From contig OZ038533.1 of assembly GCA_964036665.1 (NCBI GenBank), positions 4,574,001 through 4,638,000 of the forward strand: a DNA stretch of 64,000 bases, in the 5' to 3' direction. Made by a program: the position numbers and the translations under genes. Positions within the stretch are counted from its first letter, which is position 1, and every line of letters starts with the position of its first letter. Source of the stretch: Gordius sp. MW1. Taxonomy: Eukaryota; Nematomorpha; Gordioida; Gordea; Gordiidae. The notes under the pieces were generated by a model, which saw only the letters and a program-made list of their open reading frames with translations, was not told the DNA's origin and made no database searches. Below are positions 24,905 to 55,687 of this stretch, one piece after another.

Positions 24905-26780
24905 ATATTAATTGCTATGCAATTTATGGGCTCACTTTCCATTTTCCGAAGTCACGCACCGAACGTGGATGTCACGCACTTTTAATTTTTGTTATTTGTT
25001 AATTTAATTTAACCAGTTTTTGGGTTCGAATCCCGGGATTTTTTTTTCTATTATGATTGTTCCTGTTACTACCATTGATAATAAGACTTTTTGGCCGTCC
25101 GTTGGGTGCTGACCAATAAAAAAAATGACCATTTGGCCAAAGTGTGAAGCGAAATTATTTTTGCGTTTTTTTTTGACTCATATGATTGTTCTTGTTCCTA
25201 CCATTGATAATAAGACTTTCTGGTCGTCCGTTGGCTGCTGTCCAATGGAATCGTGGATGTCACGCACCGAACCGAACGTGGATATGCACTTTTAATTTTT
25301 GTTAATTTAACCAGTTTTTGGGTTCGAATCTCGGTTTTTTTTTTGAATATTATTATTGTAACTGTTACTACCATTGATAATATGACTTTTTGGCCGTCCG
25401 CTGGCTACTGACCACTGTAAAAAAATGACCATTTGGCCAAAATGTTAAACTAAATTTTTTTTTGCGTTTTTTTAACCAGTTTTTGGGTTCGAATCCCGGG
25501 ATTTTTTTTTTCTATTATGATTGTTCCTGTTACTACCATTAATAATAAGACTTTTTGGCCGTCCGTTGGGTGCTGACCAATAAACAAAATGACCATTTGG
25601 CCAAAGTGTGAAGCGAAATTATTTTTGCGTTTTTTTTTGACTCTTATGATTGTTCTTGTTCCTACCATTGATAATAAGACTTTTTGGCCGTCCGTTGGCT
25701 GCTGACCAATGGAATCGTGGATGTCACGCACCGAACCGAACGTGGATACGCACTTTAAATTTTCGTTAATTTAACCAGTTTTTGGGTTCGAATCTCGGGT
25801 TTTTTTTTGAATATTATTATTGTAACTGTTACTACCATTGATAATATGACTTTTTGGCCGTCCGCTGGCTACTGACCACTGTAAAAAAATGACCATTTGG
25901 CCAAAATGTTAAACGAAATTTTTTTTTGCGTTTTTTTTGACTCTTATGATTGTTCTTGTTCCTACCATTGATAATAAGACTTTTTGGCCGTCCGTTGGCT
26001 GCTGACCAATGGAATCGTGGATGTCTTGCACCGAATGTCTTTTTTGTTTACTTTTAATTTTTGTTAATTTAACCAGTTTTTGGGTTCGAATCCCGGAGTT
26101 TTTTTTGACTCTTATGTTTGTTACTGTTACTACCATTGATAATATGACCTTTTGGCCGTCCGTTGGCTACTGACCACTGTAAAAAAAATGACCATTTGGC
26201 CAAAGTATGAAACGAAATTTTTTTTTTGCGTTTTTTTTGACTCTTATGATTTTTCCTGTTACTACCATTGATAATAAGACTTTTTGGCCGTCCGTTGGGT
26301 TCTGACCACTGTAAAAAAATGACCATTTGGCCAAAGTGTGAAACGAAATTTTTTTTGCGTTTTTTTTGACTCTTATGATTGTTCTTGTTACTATCATTGA
26401 TAATATGACCTTTTGGCCGTCCGTTGGCTACTGACCACTGTAAAAAAATGACCATTGGCCAAAATGTGAATCGAAAATTTTTTTTCTCCTTTTTTTCGCT
26501 AACATTGATTTATAGACCATCTGTTGGTACTGACCAATTAAAAAAAATGCCCATTGGCCAAGATGTGATTCGAAATTTTTTTTTTCGTTTTTGATTTGAC
26601 TATTATAAATTTATATCCACTTTTACCGTGTCCTGGCTGCTGACCAATGAAAAAAATGACCATTGACCAAAATGTGATTCGAAAATTATTTTTTCGTTTT
26701 TTTGACTATTATGAATTTATATCCACTTTTACCGTGTGCTGGCTGCTGACCAATGGAAAAAAATGACCTTAGGTAACTTT
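24905..26780 (+). repeat. tRNA-boxed satellite array, left arm
   Basis: About ten units of roughly 130-170 bp each. A full unit reads: AACCAGTTTTTGGGTTCGAATC (a perfect tRNA B box), a T-run, GACTCTTATGATTGTTC, ACTACCATTGATAATAAGAC, TTTTTGGCCGTCCGTTGG, CTGACCA, and AAAATGACCATTTGGCCAAA. Some units lack the B-box part. The array starts after ATTAATTGCTATGCAATTTATGGGCTCAC (24907-24935). An inverted counterpart lies at 40795-41790. The short open frames inside come from the repeat and differ from unit to unit. Confidence 0.88.
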
Positions 26781-34026: not shown

Positions 34027-42089
<8,063 letters not shown>

Positions 42090-44600: not shown

Positions 44601-47600
44601 CTTAAATTAGTAATTAAAATTATATACAAATGTCGTACACTTACACTTTATATTCACTTCATAATTTATTCATTGATGGATTTAACTTGCGCTGTTTGTA
44701 CACACTAAGGTTCGGGGAGCGGGTGGGCAATTTAGTAATTAATCGGACCGGGCCAAGTTCAGAAGAAATATTCAATTACATTTTAGTGTTTATTAAATAA
44801 ACTAACGATCGTGACTTAAAAGTAATAATATTTCAAGTCAATATTTAAACTATCTGGCTGCAATACAGCGAAATTTAGAGGGTAATAAGAAAACTGTATA
44901 CCATTCTTATTGTAAATGATCCCAAGCACACTTTTACCTCTCCAAACAAGTTCGCATCATGCCCGTGAAGACTTGGGGATTGCATAACTCTTATAGAAGA
45001 GACCATGATTTTCAGGAATTCCCGAAAAAAATCCATATCTCTATCCAATCCTCTATTGTTCGACCTTTCATCTCCCCTCGGTTTTGAGGAAACATTTAAG
45101 CTGTGCGTTATTATGATGGCAAAAATTTTGAAATCAGACCATAGCCTTGGCACAAACTCGAGCAGACTTTTAACCTTGGCGCTAGCCCCATCTTGAGTGT
45201 CTTCTTTCAATGCCCGCAATACGAATCTTAACAAATCTTTGGCCATGCCGTGATCCAAACAAAATTCCTGCAAAAGGCAAAATTAAATGTTAAGAAAAAT
45301 AACTTTATATTACACACGACGATAAACATATTCATAAGGGCTCAAAATCATAGTTATAATTTATGTACCTCAGAGAGGCCTTAAATTTAAGTTTATTCAG
45401 CGTAAATTACCCCTAAAAACATTCAAAAAAAATTGAAGTAGGTTTTGGTGTCATAATGGTGAGAAAATTAACGTGATAGTTTAGGTATATTAAAGGCATA
45501 ATATCCAATTTTAAAGGTTTTACAACTATAGAAAACCTTTTTATTTTTTATTTTTGGCCTTAATGTAGCTCTTATTAGTCTTAAAGAAAAGCAAGAATCG
45601 TATGTAACATTTTAACAAAAAAGTAAATCTACATAATACTAAAAAATAAAGGTCAAAATAACTGCGTTTAAATAAAGTTTTCTCAACTTTTGAAAAAGAG
45701 TGTTTATAAAACAAATCCTTAAACAGGGGAGGTCGAAAGTGTATAATTGTACAAAATGTAATTAGAATAAATGCCAACTTAGAAAAGTCATTTGCCGTTT
45801 TTGTATGACCTTCAATAACTAATGATGTTTCACAATTTTCCCATCTACTTATACGCTTAAACAGTCAAAAAATATTTAAAAATATAGAGAAAATCTAAAT
45901 AACAAATGTAAAACAAGCATTATAAAATAAAAATTAAATTCATACAAAGCCTAAAAATACTTTGATCTTCATCAACGTAAAATTCAAAAACACTTACGTT
46001 AGGGACATATTTGTTGTAGGCTTCGATAACGCCACCCACCGTTTCGTACTGGTTCAAAATTCGGAAATAATTTGAACTAAAAAACAAATCAATTATTAAG
46101 ATGCAAATCGCCTAGCTAACATAGTAACAATGCCAAAATTTCAGCTATAAGCTTTTGAGACCCCATTTTATAGTAATTAGTAGTTTTTAGGCTTTTCTTC
46201 AACCCAGAGTCGTTCCAAAATTAATAAAAAGTTTTGTCATAATGTCCTTTTACAAGATCGTAGCGCCTTCTTTAATATTAGGCAATGTTATTTATAATAA
46301 AAACATTTACCATGGCGTTACTATTATATTGTTTAGAAACATGGGCTTAGCCAGCATTGGAATTAGAGGTGGGCAATAATAAAATTTAAGGAGGGGCAAA
46401 ATATTCACTTTTCGAAACTTAAGCCATAATTTTAATTCCAACAAATTTTTGGATTCAGAGGGGGGGGGCAGCCGTCCCTCCCTGCTCCTCCCCCCTTGGC
46501 TACGCCCATATTTAGAAATAAGTTTACGAGAAATTAAAACGGTGAAAGGCACACTTACCGCAGCGGAAAATAATAAGGAGATAGCTAATACCGAATAACC
46601 TAAAAAGTCTGCTGAATCTTATGTATTACGACATAAAATTTTGCAAGGAAAAACATTTTAAACGCAAAATTTTGCTGGGCGAAAGGGGAAAAAATTACAA
46701 AAATTGGTGATGATTATCGTGGTCCCCTATGAGAAGGCGATTGTTGCGGTATTCGTATACTTCTAACAACTGGTGAGCCAAGGCCTTGTCTTCCATATTG
46801 TTTCGGCACTTAAAAAGCGTAAGAAATGCGAAAATAGCTTTAATTTTGCCCTTTGTAACACAATAGTAAAAACAGGAAAAAGTGCGAAACTTATTTTATT
46901 AAATGTAAAATATTAAGACTAGGCGAAGCATATTTCATGGTATGAATTAAGGATGTAGTAAAATAATTGAGCGTCATATAGTGTTGTTAAAATGCCAAAA
47001 TGCTACTACCATAACCTATGGTAGTAGCATACATCTCGCCCATTACCATCATCATAACCAGCATCATGCTGCTTAATAACCCGGTTGCTATCACTGGCAA
47101 CCATGGTTGCTTGGTTGTAAGAGATGTAAGTAACCGGGCATTTGGCAGATAGGATTGATATAACCGTGGTATTGAGCAGGCTCGTTATAAACTAAACATG
47201 GTTTTTAGCAAATTCAATTTTAGCTTACTATTAGAGTTGGTAGCTGCCATATAATGCTAATCAATATTTTTCAATCTTTTATTAATACAAAAATGGTGAT
47301 TAAAAAATTTAAATATATTATAAATATGTCCCGTTATTTTGCCCCCCCCCCCTAATTTTTTATCCTCTTTCTCACCAGGGGGGGGGGGGGGGGGGGGTGT
47401 TTTGCCCCCCCCCTAATTTTTTATCCCCCCCCCCCTATTTTTTATCCTCTTTTTGACGAGAGGGGAGAGGGGGGGGGGGGTGTGTTGCCCCCCCCCCCCT
47501 TATTTTTTATCCTCTTTCTCAAAAGGGGGAAAGGGGGGGGGGGGGGTGTTTTGCCCCCCCTAATTTTTTACGCTCTTTCTTACCAGGGGGAAGGGGGGGG

Positions 47601-50600
47601 GGGTGTTTTGCCCCCCCCCCTTATTTTTTATCCTCTTTCTCACCAGGGGGGAGGGGGGGGGGGGGTGTTTTGCCCCCCCCCTAATTTTTCACCCTCTTTC
47701 TCACCAGGGGAAGGGGGGGGGGGGTGTTTTGCCCCCCCCCCCTTATTTTTTACGCTTTTTCTCACCAGGGGGAAGGGGGGGGGGGTGTTTTGCCCCCCCC
47801 TAATTTTTTATCCCCCCCCCCCCTATTTTTTATCCTCTTTTTGACGAGAGAAGAAAGGGGGGGGGGGTGTGTTGCCCCCCCCCTTATTTTTTATCCTCTA
47901 ATGAGAAAAAGCGTAAAAAATAGGGGGGGGGTGGGCAAAACACCCCCCCCCTGGTCAGAAAGAGGATAAAAAATTAGGGGGGGGGGGCAAAAGACCCCCC
48001 CCCCCCCCTGACCTTTTGTCATAAAGAGGGTAAAAAATGAGGGGGGGGGGCAAACCCCCCCTCCTGATGAACACCCCCCCTGGTGAGGAAAAGCGTAAAA
48101 AAGAGGGAAGGGGCAAAACACCCCCCCCCCCGGTCAGAAAGAGGATAAAAAATTAGGGGGGGGGGGCAAAAGACCCCCCCCCTGCCCTCATGTCAGAAAG
48201 AGGATAAAAAATAGGGGGGGGGGCAAAACACCCCCCCCCCCCCCTGGTGAACACCGCCCCTGGTGAGGAAAAGCGTAAAAAATAAGGGGGGCAAAACACC
48301 CCCCCTCCCCTCTGGAAAAGAGGATAAAAAATAAGGGGGGGGGGCAAAACACCCCCCCCCCCTCCCCTCTGGTCAAAAAGAGGATAAAAAATAAGGGGGG
48401 GGGGCAAAACACCCCCCCCCCCCTCCCCTCTGGTCAAAAAGAGGATAAAAAATAGGGGGGGGGGCAAAACACCCCCCCTCCCCCCTGGTAAGAAAGAGCG
48501 TAAAAAATAAGGGGGGGGGGCAAAACACCCCCCTCCCCCCTGGTCAGAAAGAGGATAAAAAATAAGGGGGGGGGGGGCAAAACACCCCCCCCCCCTCCCC
48601 TCTGGTCAAAAAGAGGATAAAAAATAAGGGGGGGGGGGGCAAAACACCCCCCCCCCCTCCCCTCTGGTCAAAAAGAGGATAAAAAATAGGGGGGGGGCAA
48701 AACACCCCCCCCTCCCCCCTGGTAAGAAAGAGCGTAAAAAATAAGGGGGGGGGGGGCAAAACACCCCCCTCCCCCCTGGTCAGAAAGAGGATAAAAAATT
48801 AGGGGGGGGGGCAAATAACGGGGCAAATTTATAATATATTTAAATTTTTTAATCACCATTTTTGTATTAATAAATGATTGAAATATTGATTAGCATTATA
48901 TGGCAGCTACCAACTCTAATAGTAAGCTAAAATTAAATTTGCTAAAAACCATGTTTAGTTTAAAACAAGCCTGCTCAACCACGGTTATATCAATCCAATC
49001 TGCCAAATGCCCGGTTACTTACATCTCTCCCAACCAGCAACCATGGCAACTTTAATCTGCCATGCTAGTAACCGGGTTATTAAGCAGCATGTGCTGCTTA
49101 ATAATGATGGTAATGGTAGGAGATATGTGCCTATTACCAGGTTTAGCACTATACCAGCAGAACCCATTTAGCAGATTAACAACACTAGCGTCATACTTCA
49201 AATTTTGTTTAGTTAATAAATTGAAAATTATCGCTTAGCGACCACTATAAAGGAGAGATTAGATCATAAAAATACCATTCAGAAAAGCATTAATAATAAT
49301 TATCGTCTTGACCTGAACTTTTTTAAGATATTTTCATGATTTTTTTAAAAATTGTTATTAAACGTAGTGGACATCATAGTTTAAACATTGAAACATAGCT
49401 CATAGTTTTGCTAATATCATCAAGAAGTAATTAAACTAAACACGGACTCTTTTAAGAAATCCTATTAATATTCGTATCGCTAAAGATCTAAGATAAAATG
49501 CAAGAAGGTACAGAGCAATGGTAAAACCATAAGTGGCCAGCATTTTACTGGATAACACAAAAAAAACAAGGCGACCAATTTTATCCAGCTAAAAACATGA
49601 GACGCCACTTAATTATTCGCTAAATATCATATAAGATTCATGTAACAATGCAAAGTGAGATTGTAGTTTTTACCACGTTCATGGCGGTCGTGAAAAAGTT
49701 GACTGCGAGGGATCATTGAAGAGTTCGTATAAAATTATTATATAACATATAACATTACATATTTATAATTAGTGTTGTAAAAAGGGCTGAGTTTTGTTTG
49801 GTCGACCTGTGGTTCTAGTCGACTAAACATAAAAAGACCAAAGCTTTTCTGGTCTGTTTTTCTTAGTCGACCTCCAGGCTTAGTCGAAATTTGAAAAATA
49901 GACTGAAGCGACCGTTATTCTTAGTAGAACCGACGAAGGTCGACCGAGGAAAACCCAGCCGTTTTTACAACACACTATTTTAAAATCAATTATATGTAAA
50001 CGAATCACATGAAGCGCAATATTAATTAAAACTTTGCTCATCATGCCAAAAGTTTGTAATTAATATTTAAGTAAAATTTAGCGTCAAGCATCTTTTTTTA
50101 ACGTGAAAAACACCATTTCCCAATCATTTTTGTAATATTGCCAATAGGCCGTCTTCATTATTGTGTTACAAGCAATTTCATTGTATAGATACGGTGGATT
50201 TGGAGACTTCATCTTCTCCTTTATTCCCCCTGAAGAGGACCATAAGTGTCCGAAATATTGCGTTCCATTTCTCTCTACCTACGCTATCAATCCAAATCCA
50301 CCGTAGTTATAATCACTTTACTTCATTTTTATTTTTTAAGACTTCATCTTCTCCTTTTTTTTCCCCTGAAGATGGACCATAAGTGTCCGAAATAGTGCGT
50401 TCCATTTCCCTCTACCTACGCTATCAATCCAAATCCACCATATTTATACAATGAAATTTATATAAACGGATTGAAAATTATTGACTATATGTTACAAGCA
50501 ATATTTACATTCAATCAGTAGACCAATTATTTTTGGGACCTCTTTTGAAAAGCTATTTAAAATGCGTACATAATAACAGATACATATCGACGATTGTACA

Positions 50601-53600
50601 ATTAATTAATAGCAAAACTAGTTTTAAAACTAATCTGTTACACATCCCTCCCCCCACTTAATCAGTCATAGGCGCTAAATTATAAAATGACTATATCCTC
50701 TAATTTAGAATTAATTGTCAAAATCAATTTGCTTTGTCAGAAGTGTGAATAAAGATTTCAAACATTTTAGTTACCATAATTTAGCTCTTAACGCAATTAA
50801 GATTTATCGTTGTGAAAGGGCTGAAGCTATAGTTTGAAATGAATTCATAAATCGAATTCGAAAGCACATATAGGAACTTTTGGGTGATTACCTAGCCTAA
50901 ACCAGACCAAACTTAAAATACAAGGCTAATTTTGGATTTAAAAATCCAAAATAATAATGGATTAACCGTTTAATAAATAACAAAAAAAATAGTAAAATTA
51001 CCATTAGAATTAAGTAAATTGATAATAATATACCATCGTTAGGATGCTGAATTGTGTATTCTTTATTTTTCAGGTACTCCACAATGTCATAAATAATTGT
51101 ATGATGAGTTCGCCCTTAAAAACACGAAAAATGAGATATATTAGCTAAACCAGAATAACGATTAAAAAAATAAAGTGGTAACACAAATCAAGACGTTTTG
51201 AATTGTTTTAACTAAAATTCGATAACGGGTTATGATGGAGTGTACAATGTGAAAATCAATTTTTATGTGATCAATATAGTTTTTTTAATATAATTTTCAC
51301 TAATTTACACAAAAAAATATAAAAGCAAAAGTTTGAGGTTTTTGTTTCATTATTTTACTATAAACTAAAATTTAAAAAGCTAGCCACTAATACTTATGGA
51401 AATACTGCATAAACAGTAAAATCAGTAAAATAGTGATTATGGTCCTTTCAACGTTCATAATCCAAAAACTGGCCCAAAATGGCTAAAATTTTCAGAAATT
51501 ATTACAATACATAGGAGGCCTATAACCTCACCAAAAATTATCTAAATCTATGATGGCCCAAAATCGCCTTAAAGATAAAAAATTTAGACTTATAGACTTT
51601 ATATGACAGTTACTTTTTTTGATTCCAAATTTTATCATTATTTAATGTATTTTAATCAAAAACCTAGGATTTTAGCATATATTTAATTAAAAGTTTTAAC
51701 ATCAATTGTTATAAAATAAATTTAAAAAACTACAAAAAATTAATTTCCCTTCTGCCCCTAAACTTTGGTTATAAGCATGCTGGCTGCGTCAATTAATATG
51801 TAAAATTTATTGTGACTTACTATCCCTGTAGTGCCCTTTAAGTATGAGTTCGAAAGTTCCAAGACTGGGTTCTAGCGATAATTTTGACGAAACCAAATTA
51901 AGTAGAAATTTTTAGTATGATAGTAAATATTAATAAAAAATAAATCTTATTTTAAATATAATTTATTTTTTCCGTTATTTTAAAAGTTTTAAAAATAAAT
52001 AAAAGCACCTCATTTGGCTACAAAATAAAATATATCAAATTGTGGACTAAGATTGTTTCCTCAATTTCCTTGATGTCATCTTTCAAAAAACCCCAAATTA
52101 ATCAATATTTCAACAACCATAACCTATGTTTGATAAGCTAATACCGTATTGCCATTTGCACAAAAATAGCATAAAAAGGCCCTCAACGACTTTTTTAAGT
52201 CAAATTAAATGTCAAATTCTTTGATCTGACTACAATATCTCATTGTTAAATTTTCAATCCAAATAAGAAAACATTAGAATTTTTATATAAAAAAAAAATC
52301 ATCGAATTGAGCATTGCAACCAAACCAAAATTTAGTCACTTTAATGCTTGCTTACCTATGTGACAAGCCCTCATTTCGGCTAATATTTGCAAGCCAAGTT
52401 GGCTGGCTTGCTTGAAATTCCGATTTTTACAGCTAATTTTTAGAGCTTCATTGAACGTTTCCAGCGTCGGGGCGATGTTATTTTGAGCCATTTCCTCCAT
52501 ATAAGTCTAAGCCGTGATGTGTCGCGAAGAAATTAAATAAAATTAGCTAATCATCGATAAATGTCCATAAAACGAGGTGACGATTTCGTATTGTTTTTCA
52601 TCGGAAAAATTAAGCAATTTTTAAGGTGTTTTACAATTTAAGTAGAAATATTTTAAACCCAATTTATCAGAAGGCTTTTAAGGGGAATAATCATATATTT
52701 AGGCAATTCAGTCTAATACATTACCTTTATAGATTAATGAGACAAAATCACTAATAAATTAAAAAAATTTGATTTTATCGAAATGACCAATATTATAAAG
52801 CACGTCAGAATCCCTAGAAAAAGAAAAAAAATAATAAAAATCCTTAAGCGAATACTGAAAACATAGACTTAAGCCATACAACGGATGTTTAATAAGGCCA
52901 ATAAATTCTGTAAGCTAAAAATTGTAATTTTCTTTAAACACTAATAAAGGTTTATTTCCATATAATTGTGTATGCTGATACATGCTAAAATATATTAGAT
53001 TTATGAGCTGGCATAAAGCCATGGATTGAAATTGTATTGGATTTTATAATTTCCATGGTAATTTTCCGCTTGATGTAAAAAAAATCTTAAGGATCATGTG
53101 TCATGGAAGTAATATATTTTAAAATAAATTAAATTATGAATCTGCAAATCATAGAAAATTAACTGCATTTTTCCCGCGTAATTCAAAGTTTTAACAATAT
53201 TAGGGACAATCAATACCTTAACCCATATCCATTGCATATCGGCATTGTCCATTTGGTATTGAATTACCGAGAGCAAGGCGTTATATATGTGACAATCCAC
53301 TATTTACAGAGGAATTATAAAAAATCATTATTATTAAATTCCAAACACAAATTTGAACTATATGAGAAAATCATTTTTTCAGTAAACTTTATAAATAATT
53401 TACGTGGTATATTATTGGCTTTCATCTCTTCGTACAAACTCTTAACCTTTTCAGCTCGTGCATACTACCAATTTTACCAATACATATATTTAATTAAGGT
53501 TAAAAGTAGAAATACAAAGAAATATTTGTGTTTAATTATTAAACATGAAAATTAAAAAGATAACCTATTTATAAAATTACACTTTAAAATATAATTTTAT

Positions 53601-55687
53601 AAATTAAAAACTGAAAATATATTACCTTAGCCAAACCTCTTATCATAATGGAATAAGCGAGCGTATCTTTAGTTTCCATATCTTCCCAAATTTGATCAGC
53701 ATAGCCCATGTCCCTAGGATATTTTTAAGTAAGAAATCTCCTTAATTTTACTTCCATCGACCTCTGTAAGGTTTTAACCCAGTTACATTTTTGTACCAAT
53801 ACATCTATATAAACCATAAAATTATGATATGTCAAATTCCAGTGTTTTTATCATACTTTTATAAATTTAAATGAAAACATCACACAAATATATAGAGCTT
53901 GCAAGATAATAATTGTTACAGAATAAAGTTAATTTTCTAAGTCAATTTTAGAAAAACACCATCTCAATTTGTGCTAACGCTGTGAAATTTAATAACTTAA
54001 TATATAAATTTGTTTAAAAAAGTAAGGGTAAATTACACTATAAACTGATAGATTAAAAATGAATCAAATTTTATACAACATTCAAATGATTTATTGAATT
54101 ATATATAATTAAAAATCTAACATCATCTCCTGGTTGTATTTTGATATCGTTGCCAGATGTCTCATCCTCAGTGTCAATAATACTTGGGTCTGAGCTGTTA
54201 TTGAAGGCAAACAATTGTAATAATAGAAGTTTTGTTTCTTCATTCACACTATTCCCTGCAAAGTAAACAAAAATATTTACAATTACATATTTAATTGCTT
54301 TTTTTTAATTTAGGGCAATTAAAGTTGAATAATAATGAGTTATAGTACAATTTAAAGTTAGTAAATTTTATAAGAGTTTTAATATGTAGTTTTAAGTAAG
54401 GAAGCTATCTTAGTTAAGCTTTTCTCAAAGCTCAATTTTTAACTATTCTAACCTTATCTAATTGAATTATAAAAACTCCCCTCTACATTTCAGCCCAGAA
54501 AAAAAGACTAGCACTTTACAAACACATTTCCACAGCTTTTAGATAAATTAAAATGTTAAATCAGTAATTTTAATAAGAAATGATATTGGAAGTCAAATAG
54601 AACCTTAACTGTAACCAATTAGCTCCAATTTGTTGATTTAGGCCTATTCAAAAATTATTTTATCTAAAAATTGATAACAAATTTCAATAATTTATCCTGC
54701 CTTACCCAACATAGCCATAATGAGAGACGCAAAGTTAAAATTATATTCCTCTATAATAAAAAAATCTTATAAGATTTAAAACATAAACTATAGCCAAAAG
54801 GTTTTTCTGACCACATACAACATTTTATGCAGTAAAGACAAAAAAGATTTAAAAAGTTTTTTTAAGGATAAGACACTTTTTTTAACTATGCCAATAATAA
54901 TATGTATATAAAGAACATTTTTGTGGTATTTCTATTTTTAATTTATGTCTATAACAAAAAGATATATATATTTAATAAGATGAGCAATTAAATACAATTT
55001 ATATACCAGTATCTTTGATCTCCTTGTAGTTTTTAAACAAAATATCAAAATTAGCATCAAGTTCAATTAACTTTCTTAGTTTTGTATCTGTTGCCTCAAG
55101 TTTATTTACTTCTAGCAATTGAGGATTTTTTGAATAAAAATGCTAATAACAATATAATTAGATCAAGTATCGGAATTTATGTGCACACATTAGAATAATT
55201 AAATAATTGACAAAAACCTCTATTTTAGGAAAATCCTTAGAGTCTTCAAAAAGGTTTGGATATTTATCTAAAAAATACCTAGCTGCCATTCTTCCAGATT
55301 CTTTAGAAAGAGCAAAAGATCTCTTGTTATCATATATTATATTTCACTATTCTTTACAAATCACTTACTTTTTCGTTTTTATTAACAGGAATAAAAAATG
55401 GATCATCATGAAATCTATATTCTGGAGCTGTGTAATCCTGATGTTTTTAAAATAAGTATGCAACTAAATCTATTACTTTTTGCAATGTATCCGATAATGC
55501 TTTCAATAAATCAATTGGGGATCTATAAAATTAACTTTAAAAAATCGTACATTACCTTTCAATTCTTAAAGGAACTTCGATATTATTTGAAAAGCTAATA
55601 GTATGTTTACTAAACTATAAATAATTAAACATAATATTATTACAATTTTTCCTGAATACACACTTTTAAAAATTTTGAAATCAGCAT
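42699..55687 (-). CDS. PTCD3: Mitochondrial small ribosomal subunit protein mS39 (PTCD3), ~21 exons
   Basis: mS39 is a pentatricopeptide-repeat protein of the animal mitoribosome small subunit. Exons (5' to 3'): 55687-55644, 55594-55556, 55522-55477, 55437-55369, 55322-55218, 55142-55007, 54255-~54122, 53713-53626, 53464-53404, 53299-53217, 52506-52356, 51871-51821, 51114-51034, 46837-46699, 46076-45998, 45267-44938, then the 3' exons described separately. Borders are GT-AG and phases agree except after 54122. The translation follows human PTCD3 in order: APEYRFHDDPFFIP, RSFALSKESGRMAARYF, DQIWEDMETKDTLAYSIMIR, NNIPLDCHIYNALLS, NNIAPTLETFNEALK, IEPSLGTFELILK, HTIIYDIVEYLKNK, LNQYETVGGVIEAYNKYVP. 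The basic start (MLISKFLK) fits a mitochondrial presequence. The largest intron (46838-51033) holds several DNA transposons. Confidence 0.93.
46340..46510. mobile_element. hAT-like MITE with perfect 8-bp duplication
   Basis: Ends CATGGGCTTAGCCAGC and TTGGCTACGCCCATA. TTTAGAAA flanks both sides (46332-46339, 46511-46518). It sits in an mS39 intron. Confidence 0.88.
46979..49187. mobile_element. hAT-like foldback element with G-run/C-run core
   Basis: The octamer GCGTCATA flanks both ends (46971-46978, 49188-49195). The tips are TAGTGTTGTTAA and TTAACAACACTA. Arms of about 360 bp (46979-47335 and 48830-49187) are inverted copies, sharing CCATATAATGCTAATCAATA and AACCGGGTTATTAAGCAGCAT-type blocks. 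The core is a two-sided minisatellite. No coding. It lies in the largest mS39 intron. Confidence 0.92.
47340..48815. repeat. Mirror-paired poly-C/poly-G minisatellite
   Basis: Units of about 60 bp: TTTTGCCCCCCCC, TAATTTTTTATCCTCTTTCT, CACCAGGGGG, then a G-run and TGTTTTG. To the left of about 47895 the units read on the + strand (eight or so). To the right they read on the - strand (about eleven). Every unit also has a C-run and a G-run, so it can fold on itself. The many Pro/Gly-rich open frames across the array are by-products. Confidence 0.9.
49770..49977. mobile_element. MITE with TAGTGTTGTAAAAA ends
   Basis: Left tip TAGTGTTGTAAAAAGGGCTGAG and right tip CAGCCGTTTTTACAACACACTA are inverted. 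The interior has several GGTCGAC/AGTCGAC boxes. The tip resembles the foldback element next door. The flanks TTTATAAT and TTTTAAAA match only weakly. Confidence 0.75.
50173..50459. mobile_element. MITE with internal direct duplication
   Basis: The inverted ends are ATTTCATTGTATA..TACGGTGG (50175-50200) and CCACCATATTTATACAATGAAAT (50436-50459). Inside, a ~105-bp block (GACTTCATCTTCTCC ... CCAAATCCACC) occurs twice, at about 50203-50302 and 50340-50441. Each copy contains GGACCATAAGTGTCC, a short palindrome-like box. Confidence 0.78.

Follow-up and report, generated by a model that had tools for sequence, protein, structure and literature searches.

Architecture of the foldback element

The stretch of DNA analysed here, referred to below as the window, comprises 64,000 nucleotides from the hairworm Gordius sp. 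MW1. At positions 46979–49187 it holds a foldback element of 2,209 bp, which is very probably, in both identity and origin, a non-autonomous foldback copy of a hAT-superfamily transposon. Each half begins with a 12-bp tip, continues inward as an arm of ~360 bp and ends in an array of G-run/C-run units. These parts and the flanking target-site duplications (TSDs) are listed here, where F1 is the arm family of the window element; F2–F5 are other foldback arm families.

46971–46978, no strand: left TSD, GCGTCATA (sequence reading and TSD comparison across copies)
46979–46990, plus strand: left tip, TAGTGTTGTTAA, 12 bp (sequence reading and flank check)
46979–47341, plus strand: left arm, family F1 (similarity matches elsewhere in the genome)
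47342–47899, plus strand: left array of G-run/C-run units in the orientation G-TGTTTTG-C (unit reading, anchors and heptamer links)
47900–48811, minus strand: right array, built of the left-array unit in the opposite orientation (unit reading, anchors and heptamer links)
48812–49187, minus strand: right arm, family F1, the inverse of the left arm save for the outer 40–48 bp inside the tip
49176–49187, minus strand: right tip, TTAACAACACTA, an inverted copy of TAGTGTTGTTAA (sequence reading)
49188–49195, no strand: right TSD, GCGTCATA (sequence reading and TSD comparison across copies)

An earlier note on this DNA, made from the sequence alone, had described a perfect 8-bp duplication, 12-bp tips, 360-bp inverted arms and about 19 minisatellite units facing opposite ways around 47895. 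The duplication and the tips are as described, with GCGTCATA on both sides and TAGTGTTGTTAA and its inverse at the ends. The arms are indeed inverted, aligning at 88% over 334 columns (left from position 41, right from position 49), with one complementary stretch of 98 nt (97%) and another of 85 nt (93%). However, the two ends are dissimilar between the tip and these positions, so that the outer 40–48 bp do not pair and the length of 360 bp is slightly generous. The arrays do face each other and meet at 47899/47900, where the orientation switches with no spacer between them, but the unit count was too low: the left and right arrays contain 10 and 17 A/T-spacer anchors and 8 and 14 heptamer links, respectively. 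Each unit of ~58 bp is composed of a G-run, TGTTTTG, a C-run and then an A/T-rich plus pyrimidine-rich spacer of ~25 bases, and no coding content was recognised in arrays of the window type.

Folded as one DNA strand, the element reached −957.9 kcal/mol, compared with −372.7 to −411.2 kcal/mol for six dinucleotide shuffles, and the fold has 305 arm-to-arm pairs. The element has 7 G-quadruplex motifs on one strand and 4 on the other, versus 6 and 3 in the remaining 61,791 bases of the window. For the suggested quadruplexes on both strands this is a count of motifs, and the element may form them; since the long G-runs face equally long C-runs, hairpins would compete, and the count does not decide between the two structures.

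Copies of the element in the genome

Searches covered 211.8 Mb in 12 contigs (two of the three contig starts inspected carry CCCTAA telomere repeats); C-numbers denote contigs and L-numbers stretches taken from the genome. The tip TAGTGTTGTTAA, which is common to several families, has 257 + 275 matches (532), against 27 + 33 (60) for the reversed pattern. Among the 40 places scored of 428 candidates, the F1 left arm was represented by the window copy and 39 others at 95–99% identity, while the F1 junction or arm pattern occurs at 70 places, which are ends rather than elements. Exact end 26-mers of the window element occur 54 and 38 times; pairing them formed 36 elements of 2,038–5,003 bp and left 18 and 2 occurrences unpaired. 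All 36, the window copy included, have TAGTG at both ends, which fits YARNG, a form that we take to be the short terminal inverted repeat of hAT elements.

Both tips lay within the stretch in 15 of the 20 copies taken by place, each of the 15 with a perfect 8-bp duplication. Another copy, L062, was completed with L071 and also has an 8-bp duplication, and four (L054, L055, L059 and L068) were seen at one end. With the window copy and the longer element L082, this gives 18 copies with both ends, of which 17 have an exact 8-bp TSD and none a duplication of 6, 7, 9 or 10 bp. The 17 TSDs all differ from one another. Comparing the flanks of 16 copies gave two matches, of 43 bp at 84% (L056 with L066) and of 31 bp inside L063's own flanks, so these copies are separate insertions. 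The earlier note had proposed a genome search for such tips with 8-bp duplications and had named the lack of other copies as grounds for giving up its reading; many copies were found. Three candidate empty sites from the flank comparison were unconvincing, and none is claimed.

Runs of 10–20 G or C are hard to read, and their lengths vary between otherwise equal copies, so the repeats might be thought collapsed or invented in assembly. Yet 36 elements could be paired, their TSDs are exact and different in 17 of the 18 tested, the units are individually different, and unit order is common to separately inserted copies; an assembly artefact is thus extremely improbable.

Miniature inverted-repeat transposable elements are short (under about 800 bp) and internally uniform, and the 36 paired F1 elements, with the lengths given above and variable cores, fall outside that class. 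Mutator-type foldbacks make duplications of about 9 bp, a length at which the flanks were equal in none of the 18 F1 copies, against 17 at 8 bp. The architecture of a foldback element, that is, long inverted repeats with tandem arrays and little or no middle, was found in 16 F1 copies.

Six close F1 pairs, chosen among the closest comparisons, were compared with their G/C runs compressed, and run lengths were then scored separately for long (at least 7) and short (3–6) runs. L061 and L060 have no substitution in 1,708 compressed columns and differ in length at 17 of 41 long and 0 of 35 short runs; different TSDs and non-matching flanks mark the two as separate insertions. L067 and L065 have a single substitution in 2,804 columns and differ at 52 of 73 long and 0 of 54 short runs, and one of their arrays differs by 217 compressed bases, equivalent to several units. 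The other pairs were L066/L063 (2 substitutions; 48/81 long and 1/60 short runs), L065/L063 (7; 63/80 and 2/56), L069/L056 (11; 55/68 and 4/51) and L058/L057 (21; 35/50 and 0/20). The window element is a real, recently mobile transposon copy with the layout of a single large hairpin.

The centre between the arrays varies among copies, from none through gaps of 372 or of 138 + 245 to ~2 kb with a retrotransposon piece. The last of these, at L055:1290–3380, is by reading a reverse-transcriptase retrotransposon piece that ends in an inverted repeat with arms of ~47 bases and a 3-base loop. The centres of L054 and L055 are alike by their gaps, and because flanking sequence is common to both, the two look like one duplicated segment on C4.

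Transposase sequence within matching arms

An F1 arm terminates each end of the 7,159-bp element L082 (C2:15836608–15843766), at 89% and 91% identity; arrays follow on both sides, and between the arms lies an interrupted hAT gene on the minus strand. Similarly, L084 contains an F1 left arm (89% over 360 columns), few units, a spacer of the L065 type and pieces of a hAT gene, the last of which carries the hAT C-terminal dimerisation domain (PF05699, 1.4e-19). For the L065 spacer, the matches in L082 are of 74% (172 columns) and 80% (411 columns, array included), and those in L084 of 76% (172 columns) and 80% (420 columns); the L064 spacer has a match of 91% in L082 (146 columns). Since these longer copies with the same arms hold pieces of hAT transposase, F1 can be assigned to the hAT superfamily and, together with the exact 8-bp duplications and the tips, they support the hAT-like foldback identity proposed in the earlier note.

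A related hAT gene lies inside a large palindrome (L083:1–5401, equal to C3:2262800–2268200). Its transposase, with open frames of 289 and 100 aa, is 65% identical to the L082 piece and matches PF05699 at 1.9e-22; among named proteins its best match comes from the hairworm Gordionus (46% identity across 58% of the query), and an unnamed protein ranks first overall (34% across 97%). The mirror arrays of L083 have a 119-bp A/T-rich unit, with 5.3 and 6.7 copies within the stretch, which does not extend to the outer ends of L083. Two further places, on C6 and C8, match the transposase search with score and frame length equal to those of L083.

A hAT gene inside L071+L062, BED-like by eye, was considered as the partner transposase and rejected, as by reading it is a different, nested hAT with its own ends and its own duplication AGGCACAT. 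At the 12 best PF05699 loci (L039–L050) no copy of the tip was found with up to one mismatch; two-mismatch matches of the tip or its reverse complement are present at 7 of the 12.

Several observations weigh against a recently mobile hAT foldback. No intact transposase with F1 arms was recovered in the stretches examined: the gene of L082 is interrupted, and the pieces of L084, whose right end was not reached, lie in different frames. The 124-aa piece of L082 has no Pfam match, and its tie to hAT runs through L083 and L084. L082 has both ends present and lacks a TSD, and the TSDs give a faint logo, with T as second base in 8 of the 17 and A as seventh base in 9. Sequencing error in long homopolymers may account for some of the run-length differences. 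Finally, movement in trans, slippage and recombination, as discussed below, are conclusions from structure.

Origin of the window copy

Longer F1-armed relatives carry hAT transposase sequence inside arms and G/C arrays, and the window copy would have lost everything between the arrays while keeping arms and arrays. The simplest series would lead from a gene-bearing element through copies with leftover spacer to arrays joined directly, as in the window. Being a transposase-less derivative, the window copy would therefore have moved in trans: an intact relative would supply transposase that binds the ends common to both and moves the copy by cut and paste, with 8-bp duplications. Slippage in the G/C runs would lengthen or shorten the arrays, as would the addition or removal of entire units; a hairpin centre that breaks and is repaired could also alter them and let other DNA in. 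We consider slippage and hairpin-centre repair the probable source of array change, with appreciably less confidence than we have in the hAT identity.

A core common to several foldback families

The core pattern GGGGGTGTTTTGCCCCC occurs 2,711 + 2,679 times in the genome, and the reversed pattern not at all. Its first 100 places form 12 clusters within the first 3.2 Mb of C1; 9 of the 12 have exact hits on both strands, always plus and then minus. The other three have them on one strand; in one of these, L086, the spacer motifs show that the units face inward as well. Ten of these clusters were inspected for arm type, giving F1 once, F2 three times, F3 twice, F4 three times and L085 once. The mirror arrays thus lie inside at least three foldback families besides F1. 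The single case L085 (C1:1653700–1655000) has G/C arrays with only ~60 bp of inner F2 arm and unmatched outer sequence, and is possibly a chimera or an old truncated copy.

The arms of F1 match F2-type and F5 arms in the outer 18–20 bp only, and no match with F3 or F4 arms was found in the arm comparison. Junction or arm patterns, which again count ends and not elements, occur at 202 places for F2, 166 for F3 and 159 for F4. The units themselves (548, of which 461 are from F1 and 9 from one F2 element) have mean compressed distances of 0.201 within F1, 0.203 within F2, 0.199 within F3 and 0.281 within F4; between families, the means are 0.236 for F1–F2, 0.267 for F3–F4 and 0.304–0.315 across the two groups.

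Because repeats of one kind sit inside families with different arms, such parts may have been exchanged or copied from family to family, perhaps through recombination or gene conversion. We tentatively suggest that foldback families whose arms are unrelated pass the mirrored G/C array among themselves as a transferable module, a possibility somewhat less likely than not. The hairpin-prone G/C tracts would make elements break and repair against each other, and the core would move among families whose hAT-type transposases are only about a third identical.

Alternatively, the families could be old descendants of one foldback hAT whose arms diverged while concerted evolution kept the arrays alike, with no transfer. 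Consistent with this, tips of the kind TAGTGTTGT or TAGAGTTGT are found in F1, F2, F3 and F5, and relatives of the F1 transposase lie between F3 arms. Weak matches to the 119-bp unit of L083 (25–57 columns, 76–92%) are also present in L082, L064, L080, L072, L001 and L002 among the 13 sequences searched; in L084 the match lies outside its tip, and none was found in L065, L073, L074, L076, L003 or the window element. However, the F1–F2 unit distance is close to that within F1, although the arms are unmatched beyond their outermost bases, and the nearest neighbour of all 9 F2 units lies in F1 (all from one element, with no second F2 element in the comparison). In addition, the G/C core is one of two kinds found within F2 arms: L074 has it, and L001 and L002 have a 129-bp minisatellite in its place. 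Common descent without transfer appears rather unlikely, if only slightly more so than transfer itself. L001 and L002 have hAT ends TAGTGTTGTTAAATTGC and ~7 units of their minisatellite.

It is also conceivable that the arrays are functional subterminal repeats, their units acting as extra putative transposase-binding sites selected for raising transposition, a role that has been proposed in Galileo and Tetris. Unit orientation is constant relative to the nearer end, in all nine two-strand clusters and in L086; TGTTTTG is the commonest link in all four families, and GTGTT is common to the heptamer and the tip. A binding-site proposal is made for TIR-220 of Tetris in the available text of PMC4079207. 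On the other hand, heptamer conservation in F1 (339 of 495 exact, ~95% per site) is near that of the 25-base spacer (~93%), so no extra constraint on the heptamer is apparent; the orientation could be inherited from one ancestor, and L082 has few units on one side, as does L084 on the side seen. We regard selection for binding sites as unlikely.

That one core is found in four kinds of arms might equally suggest an independent minisatellite, or another element, inserted into unrelated transposons. By reading, though, the arrays face each other around one centre with the arms outside, and the outer boundary is TTTG followed by a C-run in F1, F2, F3 (L080) and F5, F4 being different. Reading, without a systematic search, showed neither a duplication nor ends that would belong to a separately inserted element. 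Such an insertion is quite improbable.

For F3, a transposase hit lies within 9 kb on the inner side at 9 of the 100 places listed (of 166) and on the outer side at none, leaving out adjoining second pieces, and 2 of 24 facing F3 pairs enclose a hit. Seven transposase hits near F3 are 32–35% identical to the F1 piece, so that two distant transposase lineages appear, from these alignments, to use foldback arms of the F1/F3 kind; the arrays are known from other F3 copies. For F4, hits are equally near the inner and outer sides (2 and 2 of 100 listed places), and candidate target duplications, by eye, have one mismatch in L072 and three in L076. L075 was considered as a TA-duplicating element and rejected, as its sister L080 has, by reading, tips TAGTGTTGTAAA and the 8-bp duplication ATTCATGA.

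With arms, arrays, hAT sequence and many young derivatives in one genome, array growth, gene loss and core exchange should be traceable stepwise, and copy pairs with no or few substitutions and differing run lengths offer a direct measure of the rate of G/C-tract change. If core exchange is true, it would give minisatellites a route to spread through a genome on different carriers.

Host gene and surrounding sequence

The element was said to lie in an intron of a conserved mitoribosome gene, and on the upstream side this has support. Minus-strand matches to mS39 are present at 55161–55343 (PF22330, 1.3e-10) and, below the cut-off, at 53587–53724 (1.1e-4), followed by one putative exon:

52339–52506, minus strand: putative mS39 (PTCD3)-like pentatricopeptide-repeat (PPR) exon, on the upstream side of the element's intron (PPR_3, 0.0029, below cut-off)

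The best PDB matches of this exon are other, mostly designed, PPR proteins, with mS39 chains next (E 0.02–0.12). On the downstream side, three putative exon pieces gave no supporting match, so that this boundary of the intron comes from reading by eye. The position inside an mS39-like intron is thus supported on one side only.

Elsewhere in the window, a homeobox-like exon was seen by eye at 41940–42086 on the plus strand, and tandem arrays with units of 106–464 bp lie at 25008–26308 and 40794–41591. The first of these arrays holds a tRNA-like phrase, GGTTCGAATCCCGGG; similar sequence is present beside L059 and in L084.

Relation to known systems

The host is a Gordius-like hairworm by its COX1, which lies on the 14.8-kb contig 12: among the best 120 of 7,999 protein matches, identity is 97% to Gordius sp. 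VVA-2019, 92% to Gordionus alpestris, 84–85% to two more proteins under the hairworm names Parachordodes and Gordionus, and 71% or less to all others; taxid 2586752 belongs to Nematomorpha. Long and perfect inverted repeats are a known trait of mitochondrial genes in hairworms, according to the available part of PMC6649704. In the 1,561-bp mitochondrial piece examined here, only two imperfect inverted repeats of 14–16 nt were found. Nuclear copies of the mitochondrial COX1 were observed on C1, C3, C4, C5 and C8, a full-length one at C8:2829490–2830827 and four on C4 (two on the plus strand near 0.36–0.38 Mb, two on the minus strand near 1.46–1.49 Mb).

No published description of the F1 element was recognised in the literature searched, mostly outside subscription papers. 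Drosophila melanogaster FB and sea urchin TU have tandem outer repeats, TU with an 8-bp duplication; they differ from F1 in unit sequence and host phylum. The available text of PMC4079207 names foldbacks, whose architecture F1 has, in both of these animals and describes most foldbacks as seemingly Mutator-like. Tetris of Drosophila virilis, in the same text, is like F1 a non-autonomous foldback; internal tandem repeats, in numbers that vary, lie in its two inverted repeats, and it shares only end pieces with DAIBAM, the two being thought to be moved by one transposase, a further F1-like trait. Unlike F1, Tetris has a unit of ~220 bp without G/C runs, and its transposase was, by that account, not found, whereas F1 arms enclose hAT transposase pieces. 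Galileo of Drosophila, in the sections of PMC4168063 available, resembles F1 in long inverted repeats, enlarged through tandem repeats and through recruitment of inner sequence, and in defective copies reduced to the repeats alone. It belongs, however, to the P superfamily, and in D. willistoni direct tandem repeats are described for a single copy, whereas G/C arrays are present in all 16 F1 copies examined. Within the same genome, L083 also has a hAT transposase flanked by mirror minisatellite arrays, with the A/T-rich 119-bp unit instead of G/C runs. The window element is therefore ordinary in kind, as foldbacks with arrays are already known in Galileo and Tetris; what is unusual is the hAT evidence, the G/C hairpin unit and the sharing of the core among families.

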